Below are positions 24,250 to 64,000 of a stretch of DNA of 64,000 nt, piece by piece. Position 1 is the first letter of the stretch; every line of letters starts with the position of its first letter. The position numbers and the translations under genes are program-made. Where the stretch lies: positions 2,194,501-2,258,500 of the forward strand of contig OY365741.1 in the NCBI GenBank assembly GCA_959347425.1, read 5' to 3'. The notes under the pieces are model-generated. The model saw only the letters and a list, made by a program, of their open reading frames with translations, searched no databases and was not told where the DNA came from. Source of the DNA: an uncultured Amylibacter sp. Lineage in GTDB: Bacteria; Pseudomonadota; Alphaproteobacteria; Rhodobacterales; Rhodobacteraceae.

Positions 24250-27200
24250 ATGACAACCGCATTAAACACACACAAACAGCTTGAAAGAAAGGCTACCACT
24301 ATGACACACGCACAAAATACAGTTGCGAATCAGTACTTAAACTCCATCCTCCGCGTTGGGGCGAAACCATTGATGATTATTTCAATTTTACTAACTGCCA
24401 TGTTTATATTGGCGGCTTGTGGTGGTGGCGCGGCTGCCCCTGCTGGTGTTACGCCAACGACGAACCCTTGTGTGGGCAATCCTTTCGGCAGTACATGTAA
24501 TTCGACGGCGGACCAGGCAAGGCGCACGACGGTGGTTCAGACATGCCTTGCGGCGGGTGCGGCAAACACGCCCGTCTGTGCACAAGCGATTGTGGCAGAG
24601 CCTTGCATTGTAGATCCAACCGCCACCGGATGCGCGACGAAGCAGGAATTCATCGCTTATCTTCCTGAAGGCGAGACTGTTGCTGATGTCGTCTCTGATC
24701 GGGCGGATCATTGTAATGAAAACCCTAATACCGCAAATATTTGTACTGGTGTTCAAACTGCTCAAAGTGCTTGTACAGCGACCGCCCCTTTTGCGAACGA
24801 TTTGTGCGATACTGTCACGAATATTGGTATGTTAAGAACGACTTATTGTAACGCCACTGCGACTTTATGGAATGATAATTGCGACGCGGGTGAGGCAACA
24901 TATACAGGCGCGACAGAAAAGCGTAATATGGCGTGTTTGGAGAGTGGTATAACTGCGGATGCCAGTTGTGCGAGCCGTGCGAATGTTCGTGAGGCTTGTA
25001 ATGCCGACCCATTTATGCAAACGACAACCACGAATGCGGATCTCTGCACTGGTTCAACAGCAGATACCGGTGGCACGACTTATGCGGATGCACGGGCGGC
25101 ATGTGCGGTTGCTGCGACCAGCTTTGCTGCGAATTGTAATTCGCAAGATACTATTGGCGATGTTAAACTCGCGCGTGATATGGCTTGTGCCGAATCAGGC
25201 ACGGCTGCCAGTGCGGTCAATGATTGTGCGACCCGCCCGAATATTATTGAGGATTGTGATGCGGATGACCCCTTTGCGAATACTGGGTGTGATACGGCGA
25301 CCCATATCCTTGCGGAAAATAATAAAATAAGAACAACATATTGCACGACTGCCACGACCAGTTTTGATACGGATTGTACGGATGGTACGGATGGCATGGT
25401 AAATGTTGCACGGGCAAACCTTGCCATGAAGTGTCTGACCACGCCCACCGATTCTGAATGTACAGGTACTTTTGTAGATGGTGAAAGCGGAACAACTATT
25501 GCCGCGTGTAGTGGGGATCCATTTTTGACCGCAAATGGTTGCGTTACAAACGATGCTTTTGGCACAATACGGACGAATATTTGTACGACTGGCACGACTA
25601 TTTTTAATACGGGATGTAATGGTGATAATTATGGTGGGACGGCTGCTTTACGGGCAAGCTTTGTTGCCACGTGTAAGGCAAATCCAACCGCTTCTGTTTG
25701 TACCAGTACTTTTGTCAATGGTGTTGGCGGAACAACCGTTGCCGCTTGTAACGCGGATGCGTTTATAGACATGGATGGTTGTAATACCCACCCTGCGTTT
25801 AATGTGGAACGGACGAGATTTTGTGCGATTGATGCAAACAGTTTTACCGCGGGTTGTAGCGGAACAACCTATGCAGGTGCGGATGACGCACGGGTAAGTT
25901 TTGCCGAGGATTGTGCTAATGGCATCGTAACAGTGGGTTGCGATGCGCGTATAGATGGTAGTACTGACACCGGACAGACCATTGCTCAGTGTAATACGAA
26001 TCCGTTTCATGCTGATTGTGTTGCCAACGGTGCTTTTGCTACCGCACAGCCGCGCGTTTGTACGACCGAAGCAACTCTTTTTAATCCAGGTTGTACCAAC
26101 GCCAACTACGATACATCAGGTGGCTTACGGGAAGCGCTGATAGCGGAGTGTGCGGTTGCGACTCCCCCTGCTAAATGTACAATGATTTATGTCAATGGTG
26201 TTGACGGAACAGCCCTTAACACGTGTATTACTGACCCGTTTCATACTGATTGCGGGGACAGCATCGTTGACGATACTTTTGCTAGCGCACGGGCGGAACG
26301 GATTGACCTTTGCGCCGCTACGAATGACCCGTTTAATACCGCTTGCGAAATTGATAATTTTCCTAGCATGAACGATGCCGCACGTGATACCTATTGCCAA
26401 AATACTGCGCTTCCAGCCGATGGTCTTACGGATGGTGAGGGTTGTTTTTCTAGGAAAGCCGAAATTTGCACGGATGCGTCTGAAACCGCAACGTATAATC
26501 CTTTTGCCTCGCTATGTAGGGATGATTCTGGTATTGCCGGACTCCGTGGTACGTTTTGTACAGCGATTACGGATGCGGGCGGTCCCCCAAACCCCAATTG
26601 TGAAACTGCAGAGGTTACACTTTGCGGTGCGAATCCGTTCGGGACAAATCTGGGGACAGATGCCACTGTAGATTGTACAGCAGGTTATGCTACACAGCGT
26701 AAAACTCTGGCCGATGCCTGTCGGGCGGGGACTACACCTCCAGCTGGCACAACATGTACAACTGCTATCAATAACTGTAATGCCAATCCGTTTGGCGAAA
26801 CTGCGCCTACTGGTGGCGTAGCATGCGATGTTGCGGCATTTGCCAATGCGAGGACTGCCTATTGCATTGATCCCGCGACCACTTGGAATGCAAGTTGTGA
26901 TGCAATGGCGGGGGACGTTACAGTCGGTAATGCTGTTACGGCCGTCCGTAGTGGTGTTTGTGCTGCCAATGGTGCGATTACAGGCGCAACCGCTGGTGAC
27001 GTGGCGGCTGGTGAGTCTTTGTTTCATGCTGCGACTTGTTTGACACTGACTGCGACTGCAGACGCCATGACGATTACCGCTGCGCAGACGGATTATTGTG
27101 CTGCTGACGCGAACCCTTGGCAAGGAGATTGTGATAACGTGGCAATGGCAAATGGCGGTGTAAATACTGTTGTAACCGCCCGTAACAATGTTTGCCTTAA

Positions 27201-30200
27201 CAATGGTGCGATTACGACAGCTAGCGAAACACTAGCGGCTGGTGATTCTCTGTTTAATGATGCTCTCTGTGGAACTGTACCGACGATTGCCGATGTGCGG
27301 GAGAGGGAATGTGAAACTGAAGCGTTCGCTTGGCACGCAGGTTGCGAAACATTGGCGGAGGACAATAGTCGTGACAATGATATTGCAAAAGCCCGTGCAA
27401 GGGCTTGCTTTGCTAATGCTGAGCTTAAAAGAGGTAGCGGTGTTGTAATAGCGGAAGGCGCGTCTTTATTTAATGGTGTTTGTGATAATTATGTTGATGT
27501 GAACGCCGTGGAGATTAATGTTGCGCGGTTGAATCATTGTAAAGAAGCCGGGAACGCTTGGCAGTCAGGTTGTGGTAGATTCGATTCAGGACAGACTCTT
27601 GCCGATGCTGATATTGAAGACGCCCGTGACATTATTTGCGTTACCAATGCTGTGCTTTTTGTAGCAGAAGGTAGTAGCGATAACGCGGAGGCTGGTAAGT
27701 CTTTGTTTAGTACGCTTTGTAATGGTAGGGTTGCGGCAGACGCCAGGACGGTTGAAACTGAACGGGCTAATTATTGCACGGTTGGCAATAATATTTTTGA
27801 TGCGCAATGTGGTGATATAGATGAATATGGTGCAACAAATGCCGCACGTCAAACGGCTTGCAACACTATAGCTGATGCCCCCCTTGCGAGTGTGGGTGCG
27901 AACAATTGCGTTTCAAGAGCGGAGGCGATTTGTGGCGATGATGACAATGCTGGGGATAACCCCTTTGCCGCGATTTGCAGAGTTGCCACACAGAATATCA
28001 ATTATTTTGCCGAACTTACAGAATCCCAGCAAGATTATTGTGGTTTGCCCGGTAATAATGCGGAAACCGTTTGCGATACTACGGTAGCAAGTGTCTGCGC
28101 CCCTGGTGGGACTAACCTGGCTACGAATGAAATTTTTGCTGACATTTGCGCGCGTGCTACCTATAATGACGCAAAGGTAGCTTATTGCAGTAATGTTGCA
28201 ATGGATGGTGATACGGATTGTGATAAGTCGATAGCAGGAGCAGGCGGGACTATCAAAGCTGTTCTTTGTGATGGTACAGAAGTCTCTGATAATCCTCATG
28301 CTACGGTTTGCGGTACGGACAATGTCGCGGAGCAACGGACGTTCTGCGCACTTGATCACTCTGCTGCAGGAGACCCAACTGCGTGTGCTGGCACCCGTAC
28401 CGTCGCTTGTGCCGACACCGATGGTAACCCGTTTGATACTACCCTTTGTTTTGGGGAGAATAATATCTTTGATGCACAACGTAAGTTGCGTGCGGATGCC
28501 TGTCTTACTGAAGCAAAGACTGGTCCGGATTGTACGGATGTTGCCACTTGTAATGCCGCGCCGTTTGGCGAGTCTAGCCCTGGCGAATCCTGTAGTCCAA
28601 CCATTTATGCCGAAGCGCGGACGATGTTCTGTACGGTTGGTGCGGATATTTTCGATACGAATTGTGCCGAGGTTGCATTGAATGCGGAAGATAAAATTGC
28701 AGGTACGCAAGCGGCACGTCAAGCGGCTTGCGCACAATCGGGTGACACTCCTCACGCGGGTGTGGGTACTGCCAATTGCGTCAGCAGAGCGGACGATATT
28801 TGTGGTACTAATGCGATAGAGGGGACAAACCCCTTTGCCTTTATTTGTTCCGTAGCTACACAGAATGTCAATAATCATGCTGATTATGTGGCCGCGCAGA
28901 CATTTTATTGTCTGGCGGCTCAAGGTAATCTTAGCAATCACGAATGCCCGAATGTAACGTCTGGCGATTGGCTGAATAGTTTTACTGGCGAAGATGCTTT
29001 GGCAAACGACCCTACGGGCGATGCTGACTCAGCGACGCGTAGGAATGAATTTTTGGCAATCACGAACGACGCGGGCAATGGCCAGACGATTAGCACAGCT
29101 GGAACGGCAACCGAGACGAGTGGTTCGACCGCGCCCACCCCTGAAACGCTGAACTTTGGCGCGATTAAATATAAAACCCAAGATCTGGGTCTGGGCACCG
29201 ACAATGGTTTGGCGTTCTTTACTGGGTTCTTTGGCGATGATACTCTAGAGTCAGCCTATGCTGGGATTTATGAAACCACCGATTTGGGTGGGCCGATAGT
29301 CGATGATGTCACCAACGCAACTTGGTCTGGTGCGCTACGGATACTGGATGATGGTACCCTAGTTGAATCTGATTTTGACTTGAACGTGTCGTTTATTGGC
29401 GGTACTACTGGCACGATTAGTGCGTTTATTGCAGATGTTAGTGGCAATAAGGATTTCAATATTGATGGGACTTTTGGTGCTAGTGGTGTATTATTGACCG
29501 GAAGCCGTGTTTATTATGGTGAGCTCCCGAATAGCGTTCAATCAGAGGTTTCCACAGAGGGAGCTAATGGGGATTTGTCAGGGATTATCGGGCAAAACGG
29601 CGCGATCGGCGTGTTTGTCAGCGATAATAACGAGGATCTTTATACTGGTGGGTTTGTTGCGAGTGGCGTTTGTTCTACGAATATTTTTGCTGAGGGCTGT
29701 TCGATTGATGATATGCCATCGCTAATCGCGTTTTGTATCAATACGACTGACAACAACGGTAGAAATATCTTTAACCCAATGTGTATTGAGGGAACGCATG
29801 AAAATACCACAAACGAATTAAAAGGACTGCGTGATGCGGCTTGTTTGGTGGGCGGTGATGCGGCGGATGGCACTTGTAAGGAGCGTGACGAAGTTCGTAG
29901 GCTTTGTAATGAAAATCCATTTACGCTGACAAGTCTTACAACGGATGGTGATGCGACAATTTGTACTGGTATGGACGCGGGTGGCGTGACTTATGATTCT
30001 AGACGGATGAATTGTGAGACTCCTGGGACCAGCTTTGCTACGTCTTGTGATGTTGCGGATACTACTGGGTCGGCTGTGGAAACCGCTCGTAATAATGCTT
30101 GTTTGACGCTTGGTACGGCTGTTAACGGGGGTACTAATGATTGTGGCAACCGCCAAATTATCGTTACGACTTGTACGCTTGATCCGTTCACTCAAGCTGG

Positions 30201-33200
30201 GTGTGCGACTGCTGATGATATAAGCACGTATAGAACGAACTATTGTACGGTTGGTGCGAATATCTTTAATTCTAATTGTGGTGATGCGAATGCCTATGGT
30301 GATACGAATGGTGCCCGTGATACGGCTTGTTTGGATTTGGGTACTGCGAATGCTGGTGCGGGCAACGATTGTGGCGACCGCCAAATTATCGTTACGACTT
30401 GTACGGCAGACCCGTTCACTCGGACTGGGTGTGCGACTGCTGATGATATAAGCACGTATAGAACGAACTATTGTACGGTTGGTGCGAATATCTTTAATTC
30501 TAATTGTGGTGATGCGAATGCCTATGGTGATACGAATGGTGCCCGTGATACGGCTTGTTTGGATTTGGGTACTGCGAATGCTGGTGCGGACAACGATTGT
30601 GGCGACCGCCAAATTATCGTTACGACTTGTACGGCAGACCCGTTCACTCGGACTGGGTGTGCGACTGCTGATGATATAAGCACGTATAGAACGAACTATT
30701 GTACGGTTGGTGCGAATATCTTTAATTCTAGCTGTGGCACTGCGAATTTATATGGTGATACGAATGGTGCTCGTGATACGGCTTGTTTGGATTTGGGTAC
30801 TGCGAATGCTGGTGCGGACAACGATTGTGGCGACCGCCAAATTATCGTTACGACTTGTACGGCAGACCCGTTCACTCGGACTGGGTGTGCGACTGCTGAT
30901 GATATAAGCACGTATAGAACTAATTATTGTACGGTTGGTGCGAATATCTTTAATTCTAATTGTGGTGATGCGAATGCCTATGGTGATACGAATGGTGCCC
31001 GTGATACGGCTTGTTTGGATTTGGGTACGAATGCTCCTACGGGCAACGATTGTGGCAACCGCCAAATTATCGTTACGACTTGTACGGCAGACCCGTTCAC
31101 TCGGACTGGGTGTGCGACTGCTGATGATATAAGCACGTATAGAACGAACTATTGTACGGTTGGTGCGAATATCTTTAATTCTAATTGTGGTGATGCGAAT
31201 GCCTATGGTGATACGAATGGTGCCCGTGATACGGCTTGTTTGGATTTGGGTACTGCGAATGCTGGTGCGGGCAACGATTGTGGCAACCGCCAAATTATCG
31301 TTACGACTTGTACGGCAGACCCGTTCACTCGGACTGGGTGTGCGACTGCTGATGATATAAGCACGTATAGAACGAACTATTGTACGGTTGGTGCGAATAT
31401 CTTTAATTCTAGCTGTGGCACTGCGAATTTATATGGTGATACGAATGGTGCCCGTGATACGGCTTGTTTGGATTTGGGTACTGCGAATGCTGGTGCGGGC
31501 AACGATTGTGGCAACCGCCAAATTATCGTTACGACTTGTACGGCAGACCCGTTCACTCGGACTGGGTGTGCGACTGCTGATGATATAAGCACGTATAGAA
31601 CGAACTATTGTACGGTTGGTGCGAATATCTTTAATTCTAGCTGTGGCACTGCGAATTTATATGGTGATACGAATGGTGCCCGTGATACGGCTTGTTTGGA
31701 TTTGGGTACTGCGAATGCTGGTGCGGGCAACGATTGTGGCAACCGCCAAATTATCGTTACGACTTGTACGGCAGACCCGTTCACTCGGACTGGGTGTGCG
31801 ACTGCTGATGATATAAGCACGTATAGAACGAACTATTGTACGGTTGGTGCGAATATCTTTAATTCTAATTGTGGTGATGCGAATGCCTATGGTGATACGA
31901 ATGGTGCCCGTGATACGGCTTGTTTGGATTTGGGTACTGCGAATGCTGGTGCGGGCAACGATTGTGGCAACCGCCAAATTATCGTTACGACTTGTACGGC
32001 AGACCCGTTCACTCGGACTGGGTGTGCGACTGCTGATGATATAAGCACGTATAGAACGAACTATTGTACGGTTGGTGCGAATATCTTTAATTCTAATTGT
32101 GGTGATGCGAATGCCTATGGTGATACGAATGGTGCCCGTGATACGGCTTGTTTGGATTTGGGTACTGCGAATGCTGGTGCGGGCAACGATTGTGGCAACC
32201 GCCAAATTATCGTTACGACTTGTACGGCAGACCCGTTCACTCGGACTGGGTGTGCGACTGCTGATGATATAAGCACGTATAGAACGAACTATTGTACGGT
32301 TGGTGCGAATATCTTTAATTCTAATTGTGGTGATGCGAATGCCTATGGTGATACGAATGGTGCCCGTGATACGGCTTGTTTGGATTTGGGTACTGCGAAT
32401 GCTGGTGCGGGCAACGATTGTGGCAACCGCCAAATTATCGTTACGACTTGTACGGCAGACCCGTTCACGCGGACTGGGTGTGCGACTGCTGATGATATAA
32501 GCACGTATAGAACGAACTATTGTACGGTTGGTGCGAATATCTTTAATTCTAATTGTGGTGATGCGAATGCCTATGGTGATACGAATGGTGCCCGTGATAC
32601 GGCTTGTTTGGATTTGGGTACTGCGAATGCTGGTGCGGGCAACGATTGTGGCAACCGCCAAATTATCGTTACGACTTGTACGGCAGACCCGTTCACTCGG
32701 ACTGGGTGTGCGACTGCTGATGATATAAGCACGTATAGAACGAACTATTGTACGGTAACCAATATCTTTAATGGTCGTTGTGGCGATAATGATGCCTATG
32801 GTGCTACGAATGCGGCACGCGAGGCGGCTTGTGCTCCCCTGCCCTCTGATGGTAGCGGTACTGGTACTGCTAGCGACGGTCAATGTGGACCTACCGTAAC
32901 GCGGATTTGTGATACGGCTGGAACTATCTTTAATGCTGTGTGTACACGGACTACGACTGGTTCGCCTTATGTTGTCGCGCGTGGGGTAGCTTGTTTGGGT
33001 AATACTCCAGCTGCGACGCAGAGTGGCAACTGCCGTGGTGAACTCGATGCGGGTTTTTATATCCACGCCTATTGTAATGACCCTACGCAGGCGAATAATC
33101 TAAGGGATTGTCGTCAGACGTATGAGGGCAACAATCCTGCTATTCCTGCTCATAGAGTGACTTTGGCTACTTTAGCGAACAAAGCTCTTAATACCGATGG

Positions 33201-34167
33201 TTCGGCTTTGTTGTCGCCAGGATTTATCGCTGCTGAAGGGGCAACGAATGGCGATCCCGCCACGAACTTTATCCTGGATGGCACAGACGACAATACCGTG
33301 CTGGAATTGCAAAATTCTGCAACGGCTTTAGCCCCTGGTTCCTTAACGTTAGATTTGCTGAGTAATGTCACCGCGACTTCGGGTAGTCGCACCGCGACTG
33401 ATACTGTTGCGGAGGCTGGCTTTGCCTTTGCGACCACGAACGGCAAGTTCTATGTCGGTTTGTTGCATGGTACCGCTCTGGGTGCGCCTTTGTTGAATGG
33501 CGACGCGGATGGAGCATGGAAAGCAAGATTTAGGTTTTTGAATAACACAGATGGTGCGACAATAAACGACTCCACCGAATACAATTTGACTGTTAATTTT
33601 GATGCGAAGACTATTGTGACAAATAATGCGGCTGGTATGGCTCCTAATGTTGGAACTGATATTGGGCAGATTGGTATACACGGTAAATTCACCGCCAATG
33701 GCGTGATATATGGCACGGTAAGCGCGGGTGGCGTGGGTGTTAATGATGGCACGCTTACAGGTTTGATTGGGCAAATAGGCGCGGTCGGGATATTTAAAAG
33801 CAATGGTGGAGTTCCCGCTAAACCATACGTAGGTGGCTTTATTGCCGCACCTGGTAATTCTGCTCCAATACAAGAAGATGACACGTGTACTGATACTGAA
33901 GGGAATACTCCGTTCGCTCCAGAATGTACTGAAGAGGATGAAGTGGAATTGCAGGTGCTGTTGTGTACAGCAGACGCTTTGATGCGTTCGGCTCGTGTTA
34001 CGGATTACAACGCGAATTGTGTGAATAACGATAGGGTTACAAAACTGGTTTGCGATGATAATAAGAAACACGCTAATCCGTTTCATCCGACTCTTTGCAG
34101 TGGTGATAATCTAATTGCTCTGGGCTTGACGGAAAAAAAAAATCCTTCGCTAACTACTGCGACCTAA
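24250..34167 (+). CDS. Giant Cys-rich repeat lipoprotein, N-terminal part
   Basis: 3,305 residues from ATG 24250, or 3,288 from ATG 24301; both are preceded by GAAAGGCTAC and ATGACA. The hydrophobic helix ends in lipobox MFILAAC, lipidated Cys57 (or Cys40). Residues about 75-1570 are Cys modules of the types CxxNPFxxxC, TTYCTTATSFDTDC and ARxxACxxxG. A first barrel-like domain lies at about 28965-29670 (LSGIIGQNGAIGVFVSD). The near-identical 76-residue array follows, then a conserved GFYIHAYC module and a second barrel (33160-33850). It ends at TAA 34167, 25 bases after an A10 tract; the next frame continues the pattern as SFANYCDL. The protein should be exported and anchored to the outer membrane, with many disulfides. 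No enzymatic motif was recognised. Confidence 0.75.
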   Translation: MTTALNTHKQLERKATTMTHAQNTVANQYLNSILRVGAKPLMIISILLTAMFILAACGGGAAAPAGVTPTTNPCVGNPFGSTCNSTADQARRTTVVQTCLAAGAANTPVCAQAIVAEPCIVDPTATGCATKQEFIAYLPEGETVADVVSDRADHCNENPNTANICTGVQTAQSACTATAPFANDLCDTVTNIGMLRTTYCNATATLWNDNCDAGEATYTGATEKRNMACLESGITADASCASRANVREACNADPFMQTTTTNADLCTGSTADTGGTTYADARAACAVAATSFAANCNSQDTIGDVKLARDMACAESGTAASAVNDCATRPNIIEDCDADDPFANTGCDTATHILAENNKIRTTYCTTATTSFDTDCTDGTDGMVNVARANLAMKCLTTPTDSECTGTFVDGESGTTIAACSGDPFLTANGCVTNDAFGTIRTNICTTGTTIFNTGCNGDNYGGTAALRASFVATCKANPTASVCTSTFVNGVGGTTVAACNADAFIDMDGCNTHPAFNVERTRFCAIDANSFTAGCSGTTYAGADDARVSFAEDCANGIVTVGCDARIDGSTDTGQTIAQCNTNPFHADCVANGAFATAQPRVCTTEATLFNPGCTNANYDTSGGLREALIAECAVATPPAKCTMIYVNGVDGTALNTCITDPFHTDCGDSIVDDTFASARAERIDLCAATNDPFNTACEIDNFPSMNDAARDTYCQNTALPADGLTDGEGCFSRKAEICTDASETATYNPFASLCRDDSGIAGLRGTFCTAITDAGGPPNPNCETAEVTLCGANPFGTNLGTDATVDCTAGYATQRKTLADACRAGTTPPAGTTCTTAINNCNANPFGETAPTGGVACDVAAFANARTAYCIDPATTWNASCDAMAGDVTVGNAVTAVRSGVCAANGAITGATAGDVAAGESLFHAATCLTLTATADAMTITAAQTDYCAADANPWQGDCDNVAMANGGVNTVVTARNNVCLNNGAITTASETLAAGDSLFNDALCGTVPTIADVRERECETEAFAWHAGCETLAEDNSRDNDIAKARARACFANAELKRGSGVVIAEGASLFNGVCDNYVDVNAVEINVARLNHCKEAGNAWQSGCGRFDSGQTLADADIEDARDIICVTNAVLFVAEGSSDNAEAGKSLFSTLCNGRVAADARTVETERANYCTVGNNIFDAQCGDIDEYGATNAARQTACNTIADAPLASVGANNCVSRAEAICGDDDNAGDNPFAAICRVATQNINYFAELTESQQDYCGLPGNNAETVCDTTVASVCAPGGTNLATNEIFADICARATYNDAKVAYCSNVAMDGDTDCDKSIAGAGGTIKAVLCDGTEVSDNPHATVCGTDNVAEQRTFCALDHSAAGDPTACAGTRTVACADTDGNPFDTTLCFGENNIFDAQRKLRADACLTEAKTGPDCTDVATCNAAPFGESSPGESCSPTIYAEARTMFCTVGADIFDTNCAEVALNAEDKIAGTQAARQAACAQSGDTPHAGVGTANCVSRADDICGTNAIEGTNPFAFICSVATQNVNNHADYVAAQTFYCLAAQGNLSNHECPNVTSGDWLNSFTGEDALANDPTGDADSATRRNEFLAITNDAGNGQTISTAGTATETSGSTAPTPETLNFGAIKYKTQDLGLGTDNGLAFFTGFFGDDTLESAYAGIYETTDLGGPIVDDVTNATWSGALRILDDGTLVESDFDLNVSFIGGTTGTISAFIADVSGNKDFNIDGTFGASGVLLTGSRVYYGELPNSVQSEVSTEGANGDLSGIIGQNGAIGVFVSDNNEDLYTGGFVASGVCSTNIFAEGCSIDDMPSLIAFCINTTDNNGRNIFNPMCIEGTHENTTNELKGLRDAACLVGGDAADGTCKERDEVRRLCNENPFTLTSLTTDGDATICTGMDAGGVTYDSRRMNCETPGTSFATSCDVADTTGSAVETARNNACLTLGTAVNGGTNDCGNRQIIVTTCTLDPFTQAGCATADDISTYRTNYCTVGANIFNSNCGDANAYGDTNGARDTACLDLGTANAGAGNDCGDRQIIVTTCTADPFTRTGCATADDISTYRTNYCTVGANIFNSNCGDANAYGDTNGARDTACLDLGTANAGADNDCGDRQIIVTTCTADPFTRTGCATADDISTYRTNYCTVGANIFNSSCGTANLYGDTNGARDTACLDLGTANAGADNDCGDRQIIVTTCTADPFTRTGCATADDISTYRTNYCTVGANIFNSNCGDANAYGDTNGARDTACLDLGTNAPTGNDCGNRQIIVTTCTADPFTRTGCATADDISTYRTNYCTVGANIFNSNCGDANAYGDTNGARDTACLDLGTANAGAGNDCGNRQIIVTTCTADPFTRTGCATADDISTYRTNYCTVGANIFNSSCGTANLYGDTNGARDTACLDLGTANAGAGNDCGNRQIIVTTCTADPFTRTGCATADDISTYRTNYCTVGANIFNSSCGTANLYGDTNGARDTACLDLGTANAGAGNDCGNRQIIVTTCTADPFTRTGCATADDISTYRTNYCTVGANIFNSNCGDANAYGDTNGARDTACLDLGTANAGAGNDCGNRQIIVTTCTADPFTRTGCATADDISTYRTNYCTVGANIFNSNCGDANAYGDTNGARDTACLDLGTANAGAGNDCGNRQIIVTTCTADPFTRTGCATADDISTYRTNYCTVGANIFNSNCGDANAYGDTNGARDTACLDLGTANAGAGNDCGNRQIIVTTCTADPFTRTGCATADDISTYRTNYCTVGANIFNSNCGDANAYGDTNGARDTACLDLGTANAGAGNDCGNRQIIVTTCTADPFTRTGCATADDISTYRTNYCTVTNIFNGRCGDNDAYGATNAAREAACAPLPSDGSGTGTASDGQCGPTVTRICDTAGTIFNAVCTRTTTGSPYVVARGVACLGNTPAATQSGNCRGELDAGFYIHAYCNDPTQANNLRDCRQTYEGNNPAIPAHRVTLATLANKALNTDGSALLSPGFIAAEGATNGDPATNFILDGTDDNTVLELQNSATALAPGSLTLDLLSNVTATSGSRTATDTVAEAGFAFATTNGKFYVGLLHGTALGAPLLNGDADGAWKARFRFLNNTDGATINDSTEYNLTVNFDAKTIVTNNAAGMAPNVGTDIGQIGIHGKFTANGVIYGTVSAGGVGVNDGTLTGLIGQIGAVGIFKSNGGVPAKPYVGGFIAAPGNSAPIQEDDTCTDTEGNTPFAPECTEEDEVELQVLLCTADALMRSARVTDYNANCVNNDRVTKLVCDDNKKHANPFHPTLCSGDNLIALGLTEKKNPSLTTAT
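30142..32755 (+). repeat. Eleven 228-bp tandem repeats encoding a 76-residue Cys module
   Basis: Units start with TGTGGCAACCGCCAAATTAT or TGTGGCGACC at 30142, 30370, 30598, 30826, 31051, 31279, 31507, 31735, 31963, 32191 and 32419. A partial unit begins at 32647. All are 228 bp except the one starting at 30826 (225 bp). Each encodes CGNRQIIVTTC, DPFTRTGC, STYRTNYC, a central NIFNSNCG or NIFNSSCG, and ARDTACLDLG. Sequence identity is so high that expansion must be recent. Confidence 0.92.
34133..34142 (+). other. A10 homopolymer at the frame change
   Basis: Ten A residues follow GACGG. The upstream frame ends at TAA 34165-34167. The other frame reads AAA-AAA-AAA-TCC-TTC-GCT-AAC-TAC-TGC and carries on the Cys repeat. 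A -1 shift or one extra A joins the two. Confidence 0.85.
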
Positions 34168-34205
34168 AAAACACAATTGCTTTAGACGGGGCAACCTGCC
34201 CAGCA

Positions 34206-50716: not shown

Positions 50717-50745
50717 TTGACAGGAGCGTGAAATTTTTTTATCCT
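50717..50745 (+). promoter_or_regulatory. Promoter of the five-barrel lipoprotein gene
   Basis: TTGACA (50717-50722), 17-bp spacer, TATCCT (50740-50745), 47 bp before the ATG at 50793. Confidence 0.7.
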
Positions 50746-55022: not shown

Positions 55023-55051
55023 TAATAAAAAACACCCCATCTTTAACAAAG

Positions 55052-55079: not shown

Positions 55080-55139
55080 ATGCCTATCGTGTGGCGAGGC
55101 AAAAATATTAAAAAACACTGGTAAAATATTGGCAAATCA

Positions 55140-55168
55140 TTGACAATTAACGCGAAGTGTTTTAAAAA
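55140..55168 (+). promoter_or_regulatory. Possible promoter of the third giant lipoprotein gene
   Basis: TTGACA (55140-55145), 17-bp spacer, TAAAAA (55163-55168). The -10 is weak, but the layout matches those at 24174 and 50717. Confidence 0.45.
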
Positions 55169-55216
55169 AAATTGTTTTTAACACATTAAATTGACTAGAG
55201 ATGAAAGGTTGTCCTT

Positions 55217-58200
55217 ATGGTAAATGCTCTTTACACCATAAAAACCTCAACAAATCAAGCACTTACCCCGCGACCTTGGGGAAACCGAATCACCCTGCCC
55301 GTTTTGTTGCCCGTTTTACTGGTCACATTGCTCATTTTATCCGCATGTGGCGGGGGTGGGGCCGCACCTACCACTGCCACCCCGACCCCGCCAGCCACCT
55401 GCGCGACAAATCCGTTCGGCGACGCTTGCACGAGCGAGGCAGACAAGGCAAGGCAAGATGTCATCATTAGACGATGTATCATGGTCGGTAATGCAGGCAA
55501 CGACGATTGCAAAAACGCTATTGCCAAGAATCCATGTATAGCAACCCCGTTTCTTCCCGAATGCTCTTCCCGCAACTCCACTTTCGCCCCCTATGTTGTT
55601 ACCGCGCAAATGCAACGGCGGGGTTTCTGCGAAATCAGCACGAATGCCGCCAACAAACTTTGTGTTACTTCCGTTGCTAATATCTGCACGGGGGATATAT
55701 TTGATACGATTTGCCCCTCTTCCACCTTGGAAGAACGGCAAGATTTTTGTCGTAGGGGAAACAACCTGAACATTAACCCGAATTGCGCCGATATTGCTGC
55801 GCCAATTTGCGCGTCAAACCCCTTGTTTGAGGCGCTTTGCACGCCTGATGTCGTGCGCCAACGGATGTATTGTCGCACGGGTACGAATGCCATGACTGAC
55901 ATGAATTGCAAGGCAGTTATTGTGGGGATTTGCACGGAGAACGCGTTTGATGGGATTTGCGATGCGGATGATACAGAAGGGCAGGCAGCGTTTTGCGGTA
56001 GGGGTAATAATTTTGTAACCTATGCGAGTAATTGCACCGCCATTCTCGATACTTATTGTGCAACACGGGCGTTCCTTCCTAGCTGCGACAGCCAAACTGA
56101 GACTAGAATACAGGCATGCAGTGGTAGTATTGCTGCTTTACGCACGGCGGGCGGGGAGGCGAGCGATTGTGTCGACTATGCTGACCGTATTTGTGGGCGC
56201 GGACAGCTGGGCGGTTCAAACCCCTTTGCTCCGATTTGCGCAGATGCAGATGTCAGCGACTATTCTGCCACGATTAACACTGTGCGGGATTCGTTTTGTG
56301 CGAATGATGTGTTTAATCCGCTTTGCGATGGTTATATTGACCAACGAGTGGCCGCATGTCATTTAAATGGAGTGCCGACAAATGCCGACCCTCGGTGTCC
56401 TGCGATTATTGCGCAGCAATGCCCGTCTAGCGGCGGGACGCGGAGATCCACCTGTCATATTGCGGTTGCGGCTGCGAGTATAGCAAGAACAACCGACCCT
56501 ATTACGTTTTATGTTGAGGGAACAGCGGATGCGTTAAAGCTGGGCTTTACCCAATCAAATGTCCCAGCAAATATCAGCGATTTTTCCTCGGGCGTGATAC
56601 GATTGTCTGATTTGACTGATGTGGACTCTCCTGAAGGAGACAACGACGGTGTGGGCTTTGCATCCTTTACGGATAGCAATGGTGACAACAGCGAAGGGCA
56701 GCATCGCCAACAGAAATTCTATGCTGGGTTGCTGACGGGCGATACTTTAACCACACGGGTTTCAGAAAATTTGAAAAACGCCAAATGGCCTGCCAAACTT
56801 GCTATCTATAATGAGGTTAATCTTTTATGTTTGGGCAATGAGCTTGGCGAGGGGATGCCGCATATGGCGAACCTTAATTGCAACACCGCTCCCAATGATG
56901 GGCGTGTGGTTGAGCCAGCAGAATTCATCTTGTTGGTTAGTTTTGATGGTAGCAATGGCACTATTAGGGCTGATGGTATCCCTGTTATAGGCGACTATCA
57001 ATTCGCCATAGATGCAGGGTTTAACGATGCGGGCAAGATATTTGGCAATACCAGACTCAGCGTTGTGCGCATGTCTGCTCCGGGTTTGTTCCCCGTCACT
57101 CTCTTGACCGAGGCTTCCGATGGCACTATCACTGGTAAAATTGGGCAAAAGGGCTTGCTTGCGGCGTTTGTCTCTGACGGGGTGAATAATAGGTTAGGTG
57201 AATATGCTGGCGGGCTGGTTGCCCATAATCCCCATAATGGTGCGAGTGCGCCTGATTGTACCGCTACGGGGACTCCGTTTCATGGGCGATGTGTGGATAA
57301 TAATAATGTGCGGATAATGCTGTGTAGCACGCGCAATGCGCTGGCGACCGCCGATTTAACCAATAATTGCCTACAAGATAGCGATATTGTCGCCGCGATT
57401 TGTGCGAGTAGTGGCACCTATGCCAACCCGTTTGATGGCGTTATTTGTGCGAACCCGCAAGCATTGGTGCAACAGGCGTTTTTGGCAAATTGTGACCCAG
57501 GGGCGAATATATCTTTACGGGCGGGGGCGGATTGTGCGGGTGTGCTGGCTTGTACTGAAAACCCGTTTTCATCTACTTGTAATACGGGGGATACTGCGGA
57601 GATTTATGCCTCTGCCCGTGTGGCGCATTTGGAATATTGCCGTAGTAGCGTGGCTGTCGCTGGCACAGATAAATGTCTTTTGGCGGTGGTGAATTGCGCG
57701 TCTTCTAGTCCTCATGCAAATTGCGGGGATTTGCCAACATCATATTGTCTTGGCGACGCGGGGCGTACTATAGCGGAAGATACCTCCGACTGCAATACAA
57801 GGGTAACCGCCCGTTGCCGTATAAATCCGTTGAATCTACTTTGCGGGGATGATACAATAAACGCTGCTTTTATAAATGGTGCCAACCTTAAATTAGACCG
57901 CGAAAATTTCTGTCTGAGGCCGATTAACGCAAACAACCCTGATTGCGCCCTTACCATAGTGGTATTTTGTGATGATGCGAGTAACGCAATTTCTAGCCCC
58001 CTATGCCGTAATAGAGTGCATTATAGATACAATGTTATAGCCAGCGTTTGTGACAATCCAAATCGGGATGCACGTTTTAATAAACTATGCGATACCCCCC
58101 ATGCTTACGATATAACACGGCTGGAACACTGCAAAACTGTCGATTTCAAACTTGCTGGATGTGGCGTTACTGTTAGCGAGGAAAGACAGGTTATGTTAGA

Positions 58201-61200
58201 GATAACTTGCGGGGATGATGCAGGTCTTAGAGGTACCAACCCCAATGATCCTATTTGCACCCATCACCAAAAGGATCCTAATGGCAATCTGAGAATTTGC
58301 GGGTCTTATAATCGTGCAGGAACAAACCCTATGAGTCCTATTTGCGAAATTGAACCGCAGGCTTTGATTACAGTGGCGGCGCTTTGCGGGCAAGGTTTTA
58401 AAGGTCGTACTATCGGCACTATCGGGATAAATCCGTTTTCTGCTATTTGCGCGGATGACCTTTTTAACCCCGCCCCCTGCCCGTCATGTACTACCGATTT
58501 GGAACGCACAAACGCCAACACCAACGCGTGGACGGAAGCCCAACGAGCATTTTGTCGGCAGGATATTACGAATAACGCTTGCACATCAACGATAACGACA
58601 TATTGCGATGACGCGACAGGCGCGGATTTATTTGATAACCTGTGCAATGGTAATGACTATCTTGCCGACCGCGTAACCCATTGTGAAACTGCCTTTACCC
58701 ACGCCAAATGTACGGAGAATCAGATGAATATAAGCGATGCGGCGGCTATTTGTGGTACCACGTCCGTCCCTGGCACCGATCCGTTTAATGCTGTTTGCAA
58801 AAATGAAACGCTAAACCCCATCGCTTGCCCCAGCTGTGAAGCCATTTCTGATGCGAAAGATAAAGCCACAGAGCTGGCAAGAATCCGTATCATCGTGATT
58901 AGAGCCACGCAACAGGCATTCTGTCGGGCAACCGCGAATGTTGGCGAATCTATTTGCGCCGATACGATATCAAGTTTTTGCAGTGTCCCCACTGACAGCG
59001 ATATGATTTTTGATGACCTGTGCGGTGGTGCTGATTATACTGGGGCGCGTTTGGCCTATTGTATTCACCCAACAAGATCCGTGCATCACGATTGTGAGAC
59101 TGCCTCGGATAATAAAGCCGCGCTCATGACACTTTGCGGGGATGCGGAAACTGCGGGGACAAATCCGTTTTCTGTTGCCTGTCGTGAGGCATTTGCCCTG
59201 CGAAACAGTATTGATATAGTGTGTGGGGGTGGGCGGAATTCCCAGCTCCCTCTTTGCACGGATGAAAATGCTATTCCAGATATTGATAGAGCATCCGTTA
59301 CAGCATCGCAAGAAAATTTCTGTCGTGGCAACCTTGCCAACACCGCTTGCGAAGAAACAATAGCGGATTTTTGTGATTTTGCCTTTGATACGGATGTTTT
59401 AGACCCCCTTTGCAGTGGTGATGAACGTTATGAAAACAGCCGTTTAATCACCTGTCTTAACGGTGATACGAACCATGCGAGTTGTCGTGGAGCGGCGGGT
59501 GTTGTCGCCACGCTCTGCCCCACGGATGGGATGCCACGCCACGAAGACTGCCCTATAATCGTTGATCACGCGCTTTACCGAACCTCTGTTGATGAATTTG
59601 ATGAAATTGATGAAAATAGTGCTAATTTTATTCGGCCCTCTGATTATTTCTCTCGTAGTATTCTAGCGCTGGCGGGTGTTAAGGATAAAGCCAAGGATGG
59701 TCTCTCCGATGTTGAACGGGCTATCGGCTATGTCACAGATGCCCGCGCGAACCTTATCAGGGGTACTGGTTCACAGTTGGATTTTGGGACGATCCCCGCC
59801 ACCGACACCGTAATCAGGAACGGCGGCAACCCGCTTAAAATCAGAGTCAGAATAACACAACAGGACGTCAATGCTGATACCTATAGAATAGCCGGCACGA
59901 ATTACGGCTATGCCCTTGCCCATGCCACTGTCACCGCCCAAGACACCATTACCAACGCCTTCATCAGCAGTGAAAGAAAGCTATACGCGGGTTTGCTGTC
60001 GTATAGTGGTTTTAGTGCGCCGAATTTTGATAACCCCACGGTTGGGATTTGGAACGCGACAATGAATCTGAGGGGGCTGGGCGGTGCTACGGCAAGTGCG
60101 GATTTTGATTTGAGTGTTGATTTTATTTCGCAAAGGATTACAACCCATGCGACTCGGCTTGCCGAATTTACCCTTGCAAGTGCCAGTTTTCAAGAACGGC
60201 AATTCACCCCGATTGATAGCCATGTGTTTGAGCTCAGAAACCCATTCACTCTCAAAACTTTTTATCAACGCAACAGCAGGGGCGAGGATATTATCGTAAC
60301 CTCGCGTGATACCTATACAGATTGTAACGGCAATGTATTGCTACAGGGTAGTAAAGTCCCCCTATGTAAAGGTGGCGGTAGCCCCGATTATCTGACATCG
60401 TCGTATGGTATTTTAAGACTAGACGTTAACGGCAACCCTAGATTTATCACAGAAACCAAACAGACATCGGGTCGCCTAACCATAGATGCGAGTTTCAGCC
60501 GTCTTGGTCTAATACACGGTGGTATAAACATTGAAACAGGTGTTTTGAACGATGATGGCAATTTAATCGGTAAAAACGGCGGTGATGTGACGAGCAATCC
60601 TGGCACGCTTGTCGGGCGGATTAGCACAGACCAATTGTTTGCCGCGTTTGCCAGCAATGCGGGTAGTGCAGAGGCTTATGCGGGCGGGTTTATTGCCACA
60701 CCCTCTGCCACGCTCTCCCCCACACGTTTCACCACAGGTGGGACGGATAAATTGACATTGGCAGGTAAAACCGAGGCGGCTGCCCCGACTTCCCAAATCC
60801 GCCATCCGCTCGGCATTACCAGCAATGAGGATTATGTAATAGACAGCACAACCAACGGCTTTGCCCTTGCCTCTGAAAATATCGCCAATGACGGGATAAA
60901 TTTATACGCGGGTATTTTAAGTGGCACAGATTTAGGCAACCCCCTGTTTGATAACAGCGCGACTGGTATTTGGAGGGCGAAATTGAATCTGCTGATTCTT
61001 GGGGATACGGCATCCGCCGATTTTGATTTGAACGTTGATTTTAATACGCGAACGATTGAGACTTTGGCAAATCGCCCAGCGCAATTTACCTTTGATAAGG
61101 AGAACAAAGTATTAAATAGGCTTGGGGAAGACGCTATAACTGTTGCCAATAATGGGGTTGCGACGGTTAATGCCCTTGACGCGGAGGGCAACCCCGTTAC

Positions 61201-64000
61201 TTTCGTCAGCTCGGCCAGCGGTGTGGTCGTAACCATGGAAACCCTAACGGAAGTTCTTACTATTGACGATGACCCTGGTCTGCCCCTCCTCACCGATACG
61301 TATCAATCAGGGGATCGCAGAACTGTAAGCGTGACGGAGACGGAAGATACCAGTGTCTCTAATCGTGTTACACGAACGAAAGTTGTTGTATTGAAGGCTG
61401 GCGGTACGCTCACTATAACAACTGCATATAGCACGTCCGGTGGTACTGAACAACTGCTTAGTCAAATAGCACAAACAACTAGGGAAATTCCAGTCGTTAG
61501 AGTTACCGAAGGGGCGGTTGTTACCACTTACAGGGCTGGTCAACTGGTTGAAGTCAGTACGAGTGGCGCACCCGCTGTCAATCCTTTAACAAAAGCTCCA
61601 AAAGCAACTGGTCGTTTAACCGTAAATGGTCGTTTCAGCGAAACTGGTAAAATAAGCGGCACAACCAATCTCCAACCTGGGCAGAATGACCTCGCGCCTG
61701 GCGTGTCTGGTACTTTAACGGGTTTGATTGGCGAGGCAGGATTAGTTGCCGCGTTTATCAGCGATCCTGATAACCCCAATGCTTACGCGGGCGGATTTAC
61801 CGCCACGCCGTGGGTTTGTACGGCTGGCGGGACTCCGTTTGATAAAACAAACTGCCCCGATGCGAACATAGGCGCGAAAGCCCTACGCTTGCAGTTGTGT
61901 CTTGACCGCGACCCAGCCGCCATGGCGGATTTTGCGACAAATTGCGCGGGGGATGCCACGATTACCGCCTTGGTTTGCACAGGCACTGGTACTTACGCGA
62001 ATCCGTTTGATGCAGATATTTGCCCAACTGCGGATGATAATGTTAAAACCACTTTTGTTGATGAATGTTTTGCTGATGCAGGGCAAGCCAATGCATGTAC
62101 CACGGGGCAGGTTGCGCGGTGTTTGCATGACCCCTATGCCTTTGTTTGTAAGAGCAGTATGTATGAGCAGGCACGGACAGCGCATTTGGACACCTGCGGT
62201 GTGGCGACCAGCCCGCCCAACCCGCGATGCACTAATTTACGGGCGCAATTGAATAGTTGCTCTGTTGCCCAGCCCGACCCAAGTTGCGGAACGTTGGTTA
62301 ATGATTATTGTTTGGGGGGTGCGGGACGCGCGATAGCGGGTAAAACCACCTGTGTGGAGAATATACGCGTTGCTTGTACGGCAAACGCACTTCATCCACG
62401 ATGCCGCGATTTGGGCGTATTTCCAACTGAGATTGCCCATGTCGCGCATATAAACAAACAACGCGACTTCTGCGAAGGTGATCTTACCAATTTGCCAACG
62501 GGCGCAAAGGTGAGTGATTGCAACACGCTGGGTATAACTGTTCAAATTTGCGGTTCGCCCACTGCCGTTGGGACAAATCCGTTTGCCACGATTTGCAGTA
62601 ATGCGATGGGCAACCCCTATTCTGAAGCGCGTGAGCTTAAGATTATACAAACCTTTTTCTGTCAGCAAGGCGCGCAAGGTGTCAATAATGATTGCAACAC
62701 GCTACAACAACAATTGGATAGTGAATTTGCGCAAATAGGCGGAAAGACTCCATATTGGGCTGATAATGCAATTCGCGAGGTGGCTGCGCCAGATTTGGAT
62801 GAGAACGGGAACATCCAAATCATTTCTGGACGGCACACTGACACCAAATTAGTCCAATTCCCGATAAACATCACACCAGCAGGCAAGATAAGACGAGACA
62901 GTGCCGATGCGAATTATATCGTGGGTGGCACAACCCAGCTGGATTTGGCAAGTCTAATTGAACGTGACAGAAACGGTGTGGAGATCGACCATACCCCGGT
63001 AACGGATGGTATTGCTAATCGTGGTGGCTTGTCGCTGAACACTCCCTTTACAAACAGCGCTGATTTAAAAACCAGCACGGATGCTGCCAGTGGCTTTGCC
63101 TTTGCTAGTGTGGAATTCCCTGTTAGAACACTCGTGGTAAAGGTTCTAGATGACGGAAGCGAGTTTCGTACCATTGCCAGAACCGCGACTCGTAGGTATG
63201 GCGGAATCAAGCTATACACGGGGCTTCTGGCTGGCACGGATGTTGGCGCACCCGTGAGCGACATCCAAACAGAGGTTGAATGGACAGGTAAAATTAGTGC
63301 GCTTTATGGAGTAGGGAAGCTGGGGGAAACGCGGGGGGAGCGGAACATTGATGTTGTTAAATATGACGACAAGGAATTCACCTTATTGGTCAGCTTTTAT
63401 GGCAACTTTGGGAGTATTAGGAACAAAGACCTTATTGTTCTTAGTTCAGCCGCCAGATTTAATATAGACGGTCGTTTCAATGATAAAGGCCTGATTTATG
63501 GCAAAACAAGGCTTTTTGATAAGGAGGATCTGATTGCCAGTGGCTCTTTAACAGGTTTGATTGGCGCGGATGGCGCGGTTGCCACGTTTGTTTCTGATGA
63601 TGAGAATCCGTCTCCGCCTGGACCAGACGGTTGCTGTCCTATTCACTTTGGCAATTATGCTGGCGGGTTTGTTGCCCTGCCCCCCGCGACTCCATCGACT
63701 GCGCCACGGGTGGATTTTGAAACTTGGCTCGATAGCTTTGATGCACCTAACACCCCATTGACCCGCGCAATCAGACCCCAAGACTTCACGTCAGGGAATG
63801 ACAAACAGTATTTCGTGCAAGGCACATTTTCTGCACTAGACCGTGCGAATGATAATTATGGGACTGAAAAGGATAATCATTGGGCTGAAACCCGTGTTAA
63901 GGGCAATCCTGTCAGAACTCTAACCTTGGATAAAGCGTTTAACGATGGCAATATCTATGATGGTATTGCGTATCTTCGCGGTACAGGCAGACGCGCCTAT
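55217..64000 (+). CDS. Giant Cys-rich/barrel repeat lipoprotein (partial, runs past the window end)
   Basis: The frame is open from ATG 55217 to the last base (2,928 codons, no stop). GAAAGG lies upstream. The N-terminus ends in lipobox LLILSAC, Cys44, then GGGG and a Thr/Pro stretch. Residues about 60-440 are Cys modules (CATNPFGDAC, TNPFAPIC-type). A barrel follows at about 56500-57230 (AGLLTGDTL, AGGLVAH). A long Cys region (57250-59550) includes two related blocks with CPSC. Further barrels end near 60705, 61810 and 63690, and a sixth-type domain is cut by the edge at AYLRGTGRRAY. Its Cys modules differ clearly from those of the 24250 gene. Same predicted location: outer-membrane or surface lipoprotein. 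No function is assigned. Confidence 0.78.
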   Translation, partial: MVNALYTIKTSTNQALTPRPWGNRITLPVLLPVLLVTLLILSACGGGGAAPTTATPTPPATCATNPFGDACTSEADKARQDVIIRRCIMVGNAGNDDCKNAIAKNPCIATPFLPECSSRNSTFAPYVVTAQMQRRGFCEISTNAANKLCVTSVANICTGDIFDTICPSSTLEERQDFCRRGNNLNINPNCADIAAPICASNPLFEALCTPDVVRQRMYCRTGTNAMTDMNCKAVIVGICTENAFDGICDADDTEGQAAFCGRGNNFVTYASNCTAILDTYCATRAFLPSCDSQTETRIQACSGSIAALRTAGGEASDCVDYADRICGRGQLGGSNPFAPICADADVSDYSATINTVRDSFCANDVFNPLCDGYIDQRVAACHLNGVPTNADPRCPAIIAQQCPSSGGTRRSTCHIAVAAASIARTTDPITFYVEGTADALKLGFTQSNVPANISDFSSGVIRLSDLTDVDSPEGDNDGVGFASFTDSNGDNSEGQHRQQKFYAGLLTGDTLTTRVSENLKNAKWPAKLAIYNEVNLLCLGNELGEGMPHMANLNCNTAPNDGRVVEPAEFILLVSFDGSNGTIRADGIPVIGDYQFAIDAGFNDAGKIFGNTRLSVVRMSAPGLFPVTLLTEASDGTITGKIGQKGLLAAFVSDGVNNRLGEYAGGLVAHNPHNGASAPDCTATGTPFHGRCVDNNNVRIMLCSTRNALATADLTNNCLQDSDIVAAICASSGTYANPFDGVICANPQALVQQAFLANCDPGANISLRAGADCAGVLACTENPFSSTCNTGDTAEIYASARVAHLEYCRSSVAVAGTDKCLLAVVNCASSSPHANCGDLPTSYCLGDAGRTIAEDTSDCNTRVTARCRINPLNLLCGDDTINAAFINGANLKLDRENFCLRPINANNPDCALTIVVFCDDASNAISSPLCRNRVHYRYNVIASVCDNPNRDARFNKLCDTPHAYDITRLEHCKTVDFKLAGCGVTVSEERQVMLEITCGDDAGLRGTNPNDPICTHHQKDPNGNLRICGSYNRAGTNPMSPICEIEPQALITVAALCGQGFKGRTIGTIGINPFSAICADDLFNPAPCPSCTTDLERTNANTNAWTEAQRAFCRQDITNNACTSTITTYCDDATGADLFDNLCNGNDYLADRVTHCETAFTHAKCTENQMNISDAAAICGTTSVPGTDPFNAVCKNETLNPIACPSCEAISDAKDKATELARIRIIVIRATQQAFCRATANVGESICADTISSFCSVPTDSDMIFDDLCGGADYTGARLAYCIHPTRSVHHDCETASDNKAALMTLCGDAETAGTNPFSVACREAFALRNSIDIVCGGGRNSQLPLCTDENAIPDIDRASVTASQENFCRGNLANTACEETIADFCDFAFDTDVLDPLCSGDERYENSRLITCLNGDTNHASCRGAAGVVATLCPTDGMPRHEDCPIIVDHALYRTSVDEFDEIDENSANFIRPSDYFSRSILALAGVKDKAKDGLSDVERAIGYVTDARANLIRGTGSQLDFGTIPATDTVIRNGGNPLKIRVRITQQDVNADTYRIAGTNYGYALAHATVTAQDTITNAFISSERKLYAGLLSYSGFSAPNFDNPTVGIWNATMNLRGLGGATASADFDLSVDFISQRITTHATRLAEFTLASASFQERQFTPIDSHVFELRNPFTLKTFYQRNSRGEDIIVTSRDTYTDCNGNVLLQGSKVPLCKGGGSPDYLTSSYGILRLDVNGNPRFITETKQTSGRLTIDASFSRLGLIHGGINIETGVLNDDGNLIGKNGGDVTSNPGTLVGRISTDQLFAAFASNAGSAEAYAGGFIATPSATLSPTRFTTGGTDKLTLAGKTEAAAPTSQIRHPLGITSNEDYVIDSTTNGFALASENIANDGINLYAGILSGTDLGNPLFDNSATGIWRAKLNLLILGDTASADFDLNVDFNTRTIETLANRPAQFTFDKENKVLNRLGEDAITVANNGVATVNALDAEGNPVTFVSSASGVVVTMETLTEVLTIDDDPGLPLLTDTYQSGDRRTVSVTETEDTSVSNRVTRTKVVVLKAGGTLTITTAYSTSGGTEQLLSQIAQTTREIPVVRVTEGAVVTTYRAGQLVEVSTSGAPAVNPLTKAPKATGRLTVNGRFSETGKISGTTNLQPGQNDLAPGVSGTLTGLIGEAGLVAAFISDPDNPNAYAGGFTATPWVCTAGGTPFDKTNCPDANIGAKALRLQLCLDRDPAAMADFATNCAGDATITALVCTGTGTYANPFDADICPTADDNVKTTFVDECFADAGQANACTTGQVARCLHDPYAFVCKSSMYEQARTAHLDTCGVATSPPNPRCTNLRAQLNSCSVAQPDPSCGTLVNDYCLGGAGRAIAGKTTCVENIRVACTANALHPRCRDLGVFPTEIAHVAHINKQRDFCEGDLTNLPTGAKVSDCNTLGITVQICGSPTAVGTNPFATICSNAMGNPYSEARELKIIQTFFCQQGAQGVNNDCNTLQQQLDSEFAQIGGKTPYWADNAIREVAAPDLDENGNIQIISGRHTDTKLVQFPINITPAGKIRRDSADANYIVGGTTQLDLASLIERDRNGVEIDHTPVTDGIANRGGLSLNTPFTNSADLKTSTDAASGFAFASVEFPVRTLVVKVLDDGSEFRTIARTATRRYGGIKLYTGLLAGTDVGAPVSDIQTEVEWTGKISALYGVGKLGETRGERNIDVVKYDDKEFTLLVSFYGNFGSIRNKDLIVLSSAARFNIDGRFNDKGLIYGKTRLFDKEDLIASGSLTGLIGADGAVATFVSDDENPSPPGPDGCCPIHFGNYAGGFVALPPATPSTAPRVDFETWLDSFDAPNTPLTRAIRPQDFTSGNDKQYFVQGTFSALDRANDNYGTEKDNHWAETRVKGNPVRTLTLDKAFNDGNIYDGIAYLRGTGRRAY

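Follow-up and report, generated by a model that had tools for sequence, protein, structure and literature searches.

A stretch of 64,000 nucleotides from an uncultured Amylibacter sp. (GenBank contig OY365741.1, positions 2,194,501 to 2,258,500; hereafter the window) contains seven open reading frames (ORFs), named here by their first position, which encode many copies of a unit of about 220 residues predicted to fold into a handle plus beta-barrel. We consider it probable that their products are outward-facing, lipid-anchored modular surface arrays exported by the type 11 secretion system (T11SS), of the Slam/T11SS cargo kind but expanded to giant size. Export and surface exposure are suggested by the fold, the C-terminal placement of the unit and the Slam link of its relatives, and a role as surface adhesin, receptor or shield would be consistent with them. 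What is known here is T11SS-type handle-barrel cargo; what is new is the giant size, the number of lobes (up to ten) and the cysteine spacers.

Units, cysteine arrays and lipoprotein features

The five units of ORF 50793 (50793-55022) served as the seed of the unit profile, which was applied at an independent E-value (i-Evalue) below 1e-3. It matches 31 stretches in the seven ORFs, all on the same strand (Table 1). Two units of ORF 55217 are each halved by an insertion, as the complementary profile ranges of the halves indicate, and the 31 stretches therefore represent 29 units: two each in ORFs 8242, 11519 and 24250, ten in ORF 34206, three in ORF 47403, five in ORF 50793, and four complete plus one cut in ORF 55217. 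A preliminary description of this DNA had counted 28 full copies and one cut by the window end, exactly the number that the profile search yields. None of 140 shuffled proteins is matched, and among 402 stop-to-stop segments of at least 60 amino acids (aa) in a six-frame control, matches are confined to the seven frames. The invariant positions of the unit are glycines, one tryptophan, one isoleucine and one phenylalanine; strand columns of the alignment are better conserved and fuller than the others, and 7 of the 9 sites that accept 15 or more inserted residues lie outside strands. The signature that had been described as shared, GLLSGTDLGAPL, occurs in exact form only once across the seven ORFs (unit 38496..39125), and it is its variants that recur in the units.

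Cysteines avoid the units almost completely. Units account for 6305 of 14984 residues (42%) and yet contain only 8 of 566 cysteines, so the previously claimed alternation of cysteine modules with a beta-rich domain is real; in the 82 database proteins described below, the figure is 24 of 1878. Long cysteine arrays alternate with units in ORFs 24250, 34206 and 55217. ORF 8242 possesses 14 CxxDPFxxxC-type repeats at a spacing of 27 or 28 aa (one of 24), ORF 11519 nine, nearly all at the same spacing, and in ORF 24250 a diverged module pattern (CxADPFxxxGC, RxxYC, FNxxC, ARxxAC) recurs along the length of the array. Nothing in Pfam matches these modules, whose cysteines presumably form disulfides, at a score above cut-off, and they thus add an element outside that database; the sole Pfam touch in an array is EsV_1_7_cys (0.12; 12.7 bits versus a cut-off of 25).

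A signal peptide with lipobox is recognizable by eye at the N-terminus of five ORFs (8242, 11519, 24250, 50793, 55217); the two without a visible signal peptide, 34206 and 47403, both come after breaks in the first giant locus. As assembled, this locus consists of three ORFs (24250-34167, 34206-47321 and 47403-50606). The earlier claim of three successive loci that each encode one long protein consequently needs correction for the first of them. Because neither shows a signal peptide, the second and third ORFs look like fragments, and a reading of the three as separate genes is disfavoured. The breaks, at an A10 tract and an in-frame TAG, may reflect errors of sequencing, phase variation or decay; the A10 tract, lying in a surface-protein gene, could be either a place of slippage (phase variation) or a sequencing artefact. 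Of the TTGACA-type promoters claimed for all three loci, consensus matches are present before ORFs 24250 and 50793; no match on the + strand was found upstream of ORF 55217.

These breaks bear on another explanation, namely that the region is degenerating or misassembled, with relics or collapsed repeats posing as giant ORFs and assembly error inflating the finding. The frame change does coincide with the one A/T run of the window that is at least 9 long, an in-frame TAG follows, and the 228-bp array could be mis-sized. Yet ORFs of 3305, 4371, 1409 and at least 2927 aa remain open, the units are common to 81 other database proteins with lengths reaching at least 2436 aa, and relatives conserve the unit order; we regard degeneration or misassembly as very improbable.

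Table 1. Features of the window, by position. Handle-barrel units were located with the unit profile; promoter entries are consensus matches only.
Feature	Positions	Strand	Remark
Short heptanucleotide tandem arrays	1669-1702, 2099-2138, 3813-3852, 11246-11277, 14229-14272, 14641-14679, 22291-22322
Lipoprotein ORF, 1001 aa	8242..11247	+	lipobox LSAC-GG; Asp/Thr-rich linker; 2 C-terminal units
Unit	10003..10557	+	i-Evalue 4.8e-43
Unit	10582..11235	+	i-Evalue 2.5e-48
Lipoprotein ORF, 904 aa	11519..14233	+	lipobox LTAC-GG; Asp/Thr/Pro-rich linker; 2 C-terminal units
Unit	12956..13531	+	unit profile
Unit	13553..14221	+	unit profile
Promoter-like TTGACA-18-AATTAT	24174..24203	+	consensus match
Lipoprotein ORF, 3305 aa	24250..34167	+	lipobox LAAC-GG; 203 Cys; 2 units; ends at frame change
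Unit	28954..29661	+	unit profile
228-bp tandem array	30139..32812	+	11.8 copies; 96% DNA matches; encodes 76-aa six-Cys module
Unit	33235..33846	+	unit profile
A10 tract	34133..34142	+	reading-frame change within Cys-rich stretch
ORF, 4371 aa	34206..47321	+	148 Cys; 10 units; resumes Cys array in different frame
Unit	35148..35729	+	unit profile
Unit	37830..38432	+	unit profile
Unit	38496..39125	+	unit profile; exact signature
Unit	39186..39884	+	unit profile
Unit	41163..41813	+	unit profile
Unit	42198..42869	+	unit profile
Unit	44472..45173	+	unit profile
Unit	45225..45929	+	unit profile
Unit	46002..46607	+	unit profile
Unit	46656..47300	+	unit profile; stop 6 residues downstream
In-frame TAG	47319..47321	+	6 residues past a unit; same frame then open to 50606
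ORF, 1067 aa	47403..50606	+	3 units
Unit	47754..48557	+	unit profile
Unit	49320..49931	+	unit profile
Unit	49947..50588	+	unit profile
Promoter-like TTGACA-17-TATCCT	50717..50745	+	consensus match
Lipoprotein ORF, 1409 aa, uninterrupted	50793..55022	+	lipobox LTAC-GG; Pro-rich linker; 5 units; only 5 Cys
Unit 1 of ORF 50793	51381..52046	+	unit profile
Unit 2 of ORF 50793	52074..52850	+	unit profile; variable cassette
Unit 3 of ORF 50793	52881..53546	+	unit profile; structure modelled
Unit 4 of ORF 50793	53637..54275	+	unit profile
Unit 5 of ORF 50793	54288..55013	+	unit profile; 2 residues short of C-terminus
Lipoprotein ORF, at least 2927 aa	55217..64000	+	lipobox LSAC-GG; 125 Cys; cut by window end
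Unit	56471..57223	+	unit profile
Unit with long insertion	59798..60697	+	unit profile, two stretches
Unit with long insertion	60713..61804	+	unit profile, two stretches
Unit	62870..63676	+	unit profile
Unit, cut by window end	63710..63982	+	unit profile

Fold and kinship of the unit

The AlphaFold2 (AF2) model of unit 3 of ORF 50793 (predicted local distance difference test, pLDDT, 87.3; predicted template modelling score, pTM, 0.87) consists of a handle and a beta-barrel, and the modelled unit has the handle plus 8-strand barrel lobe known from Slam/T11SS cargo. Among its 50 listed structural neighbours, 49 are hemophilin/HphA, TbpB, LbpB, HpuA, NHBA or fHbp, and the hemophilin- and TbpB-type matches span model residues 1-222; Foldseek alone returned no match to the model at E<=1e-3. 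The TbpB likeness proposed in the preliminary description is thus borne out, and structure prediction, on which its authors had staked that proposal, gave both a barrel and TbpB-type neighbours. On the sequence level, the database relative P0013 combines three units with a C-terminal TbpB_B_D domain (PF01298, 8.6e-8), the only match above cut-off among 11 relatives scanned. P0013 forms a natural bridge between the unit family and the TbpB_B_D sequence family. Searches of Pfam, NCBIfam, PDB sequences and plasmids with the window proteins gave nothing useful.

Given that the top structural matches are hemophores and transferrin-binding proteins, the lobes might instead serve as nutrient receptors that bind heme or an iron-carrier protein for a TonB-dependent receptor, with more lobes providing more capacity or ligand range. 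We know of no transferrin target in sponge tissue, the presumed habitat (see below), which argues against this explanation. So does the lack of a TonB-dependent receptor in the 22 Pfam-scanned window ORFs (out of 46 of at least 150 aa). Furthermore, in no alignment column do more than 5 of 25 units have a His; hemophore function is accordingly rated low, and a heme site of the HphA type, where two His coordinate heme (PMC8560813), is disfavoured because no His is conserved in the units. TonB receptors are also rare beside the Slams of marine Rhodobacteraceae (PMC12282271). Taken with its supporting matches, a nutrient receptor appears quite unlikely.

Relatives, host and variation

Two protein searches with the window proteins yielded 57 and 25, i.e. 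82 database proteins with 1 to 9 units each, P0001 being ORF 50793 of the window itself. The last unit ends within 24 residues of the C-terminus in 80 of the 82 and within 10 in 73; the exceptions are P0013, where TbpB_B_D sits in this place, and P0053 (84 residues). The same arrangement, at no more than 6 residues from the end, is seen in window ORFs 8242, 11519, 34206, 47403 and 50793, while the last unit of ORF 24250 is trailed by 106 aa, which leaves this ORF with no C-terminal unit. Named relatives are P0009 from Candidatus Halichondribacter symbioticus, P0053 from a proteobacterial and P0054 from a gammaproteobacterial metagenome-assembled genome, the last two being partial proteins; the multi-unit form may hence extend beyond Rhodobacterales. 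P0053 possesses seven units and two cysteines, P0054 three units and one cysteine. The protein database annotates P0133-P0141, which are related to ORFs 8242 and 11519, with Pfam family PF27069.

The source organism is a Rhodobacterales bacterium. Of the best 80 matches to the window citrate synthase, the top one, from Amylibacter sp. SFDW26, has 81% identity. Sequence relatedness suggests that the organism is probably related to Candidatus Halichondribacter, which NCBI places in Rhodobacterales and which is an obligate symbiont of the sponge Halichondria panicea (PMC10154371), and that the window is likely of sponge origin.

Units 1, 3, 4 and 5 of ORF 50793 share 96, 95, 92 and 97% identity with their counterparts in the nearest relative, P0002, but for unit 2 the figure is only 60%. 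Measured over 30-residue windows, an identity of 0.90 drops to 0.60 at residue 421 and to 0.30 at residue 631, and is back at 1.00 by residue 721, which delimits a low-identity block of roughly residues 421-690. Between P0002 and P0010 the relation is inverted: unit 2 is 86% identical, units 1 and 3 are 62-63% and the last unit 51%. Among 12 proteins compared, unit 2 of the window is closest to that of P0006 (79%). There are thus at least two classes of unit 2, and these do not track the remainder of the protein. An exchanged cassette would produce such a pattern; fast change of this unit is another possible explanation. Since paralogous units within ORF 50793 are only 34-51% alike and find their best matches in position-mates of relatives, the units seem to be old and their order kept, with the qualification that P0009 and P0010 have no counterpart of unit 4. 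The cysteine arrays behave oppositely; they consist of near-identical tandem copies, and the repeat number ranges from 4 to 13 across 18 close relatives (P0131-P0148).

Link to Slam

We surveyed 394 genomes from the family of genome G001. A first profile (A1) detects units in 7 of them; a mixed profile (A3), which includes nine single-unit proteins from these 7 genomes, detects units in 29, with 40 matches that all lie in short frames of 138-392 aa. The Slam domain SlipAM (PF04575) is found in 145 of the 394 genomes, and more frequently in unit-bearing genomes (19 of 29) than in the others (126 of 365; Fisher p 0.0012, uncorrected for kinship). In at least 8 of the 29 genomes a distant single-unit gene immediately precedes a Slam ORF of the same strand, with 2-60 bases between the two; unit matches are strong in G137, G351, G373, G311 and G231 and weak in G270, G052 and G348, and 7 of these 8 unit genes encode a lipobox-like motif. 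The one adjoining Slam checked against Pfam (locus L096, 8714-10042) has SlipAM at 5.1e-22 and a sub-threshold TPR_Slam. We conclude that a link to Slam exists for at least part of the distant single-lobe relatives. In two further sets, neither of which includes a known giant-protein genome and in which only a few first-look candidates were scored per genome, A1 found 5 matches (frames of 202-299 aa) in 4 of 331 Rhodobacterales genomes and none in 376 Alphaproteobacteria. A scan of genome contigs with profile A2 returned 207 stretches with no relative among them, and viral contigs gave none.

According to the model that we favour, Sec and Lol would deliver the lipoprotein to the outer membrane, where a Slam protein would recognise the C-terminal barrel and pass the chain outward. 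The cysteine modules would act as disulfide-locked spacers, and the product would be an extended chain of barrels held by its lipid anchor. The core of the barrel may represent a fixed scaffold, with variation and exchange affecting loops, handles and entire lobes, and such variation would fit an adhesin or receptor array facing host, phage or neighbours.

Several observations weigh against this model. SlipAM matches are absent from 10 of the 29 unit-bearing genomes, including G163, G239, G259, G375 and G379 with strong units, and among the matches listed 21 of the 29 have no adjacent SlipAM. No Slam gene was found among the window ORFs scanned, and none of the 73 proteins listed in a protein-database Slam search, in which the best 7996 candidates by shared words were scored, is assigned to the genome of the window. 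Barrel-type cargo is rare beside marine Rhodobacteraceae Slams, at 0.21 per Slam (PMC12282271), and the handle-barrel fold does not prove Slam use, because some lipoproteins are reported to need no species-specific machinery for their passage through the outer membrane (PMC5500766). The literature considered holds no precedent for Slam export of an equally long cysteine-rich chain. PF01298 has no match at E<=10 in 25 units and none in the seven whole ORFs, so that the link of the window units to TbpB_B_D is structural, by prediction, and transitive. AF2 gave no interpretable fold for two 76-aa cysteine modules (pLDDT 41.6), the largest locus is interrupted in the assembly, and the sponge host is deduced from a relative with only about 49% identity.

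The genomes lacking SlipAM, together with the fact that no Slam is shown for the window's own genome, also lend weight to an interpretation in which the lipoproteins do not depend on Slam and inherited only their fold from Slam cargo: they might use another display route or face the periplasm, for example as a cysteine-rich scaffold between outer membrane and cell wall. Cysteine arrays suit the oxidising periplasm, and position +2 of the lipobox is Gly, which is normal for outer-membrane sorting. Three results oppose this interpretation: the C-terminal lobe is retained in nearly all database proteins, unit genes co-occur with Slam and adjoin it in at least eight genomes, and lobe 2 differs blockwise between relatives, which is more typical of surface exposure. 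We rate Slam independence as unlikely and retain Slam-dependent display as the more plausible account.

A more far-reaching scenario, which we put forward tentatively and hold to be doubtful, is that a symbiont clade made the Slam-cargo lobe a modular block. Giant disulfide-braced strings with swapped lobes and with spacers that grow and shrink could then form an exchangeable recognition coat, by which a sponge symbiont would be distinguished from food bacteria or would evade phages; such strings would have up to ten lobes, or fifteen if the broken locus was ever read as one chain.

Comparison with known systems

About ten T11SS cargo architectures are described, with one to three lobes (PMC12282271). 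Many Slam-adjacent lipoproteins have an eight-strand barrel in common, and their display was tested in E. coli (PMC5449769). Most similar to the window are proteins of Sphingomonas and Psychrobacter, mostly lipoproteins, which likewise possess several (two to three) TbpB_B_D handle-barrel pairs, and whose N-terminal Pro-Thr or Pro-Thr-Asp repeats resemble the linkers rich in Asp, Thr and Pro in ORFs 8242 and 11519; they differ in their lower lobe number, in belonging to other bacterial groups and in that the available part of the report mentions no cysteine arrays (PMC12282271). Single-barrel cargo near Slam exists in Rhodobacteraceae but is rare (PMC12282271). These proteins (our loci L096 and L133-L139) come from the same family or order, match the unit profile and adjoin Slam, but have one lobe and only 182-249 aa at our loci, or 282-375 aa in the published set (PMC12282271). 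Hemophilin/HphA (7re4, 7rea, 6om5, 8gmm, 8gm3, 8glo; PMC8560813) is single-lobed, and its His contrast with the window units, which conserve none. NilC of Xenorhabdus nematophila is a T11SS cargo that promotes host colonisation, but a two-domain protein (PMC9100927).

TbpB and LbpB have two lobes and the partners TbpA and LbpA, whereas the window ORFs have 2, 2, 2, 10, 3, 5 and 4-5 units and no partner receptor among the 22 scanned. In literature word searches, no listed title or abstract opening tells of giant multi-lobe or cysteine-array cargo, and the earlier statement that a fusion of many barrels with such arrays is undescribed holds against the nearest described cargo of two to three lobes (PMC12282271). 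Described T11SS-type cargo has one to three lobes; the window would thereby raise this number to ten within a single ORF, in relatives of an obligate sponge symbiont. Its proteins are concrete candidates for the face that sponge symbionts show to a phagocytic, filter-feeding host, and they would put the chain length that a Slam protein can export to a hard test.

Genomic context

The window is a segment of a bacterial chromosome. Pfam domains suggest purB, purC, a purQ/L-type amidotransferase, gltA and gltX, and further a purine/uracil permease, comEC, lexA and a sigma-54 response regulator, the gene names being our interpretation. The heptanucleotide arrays (ATTAGTG, AATCACT, ATTAGTT etc.) are intergenic or located at ORF ends. 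A 206-aa Abi_2-like/HEPN protein (PF07751, 8.7e-9) is encoded on the minus strand at 5746-6366 and, judged by this domain, is possibly an anti-phage abortive-infection gene product. Also on the minus strand, a DUF1638 protein (6547-7236) adjoins a protein with a B12-binding domain (7256-7960).
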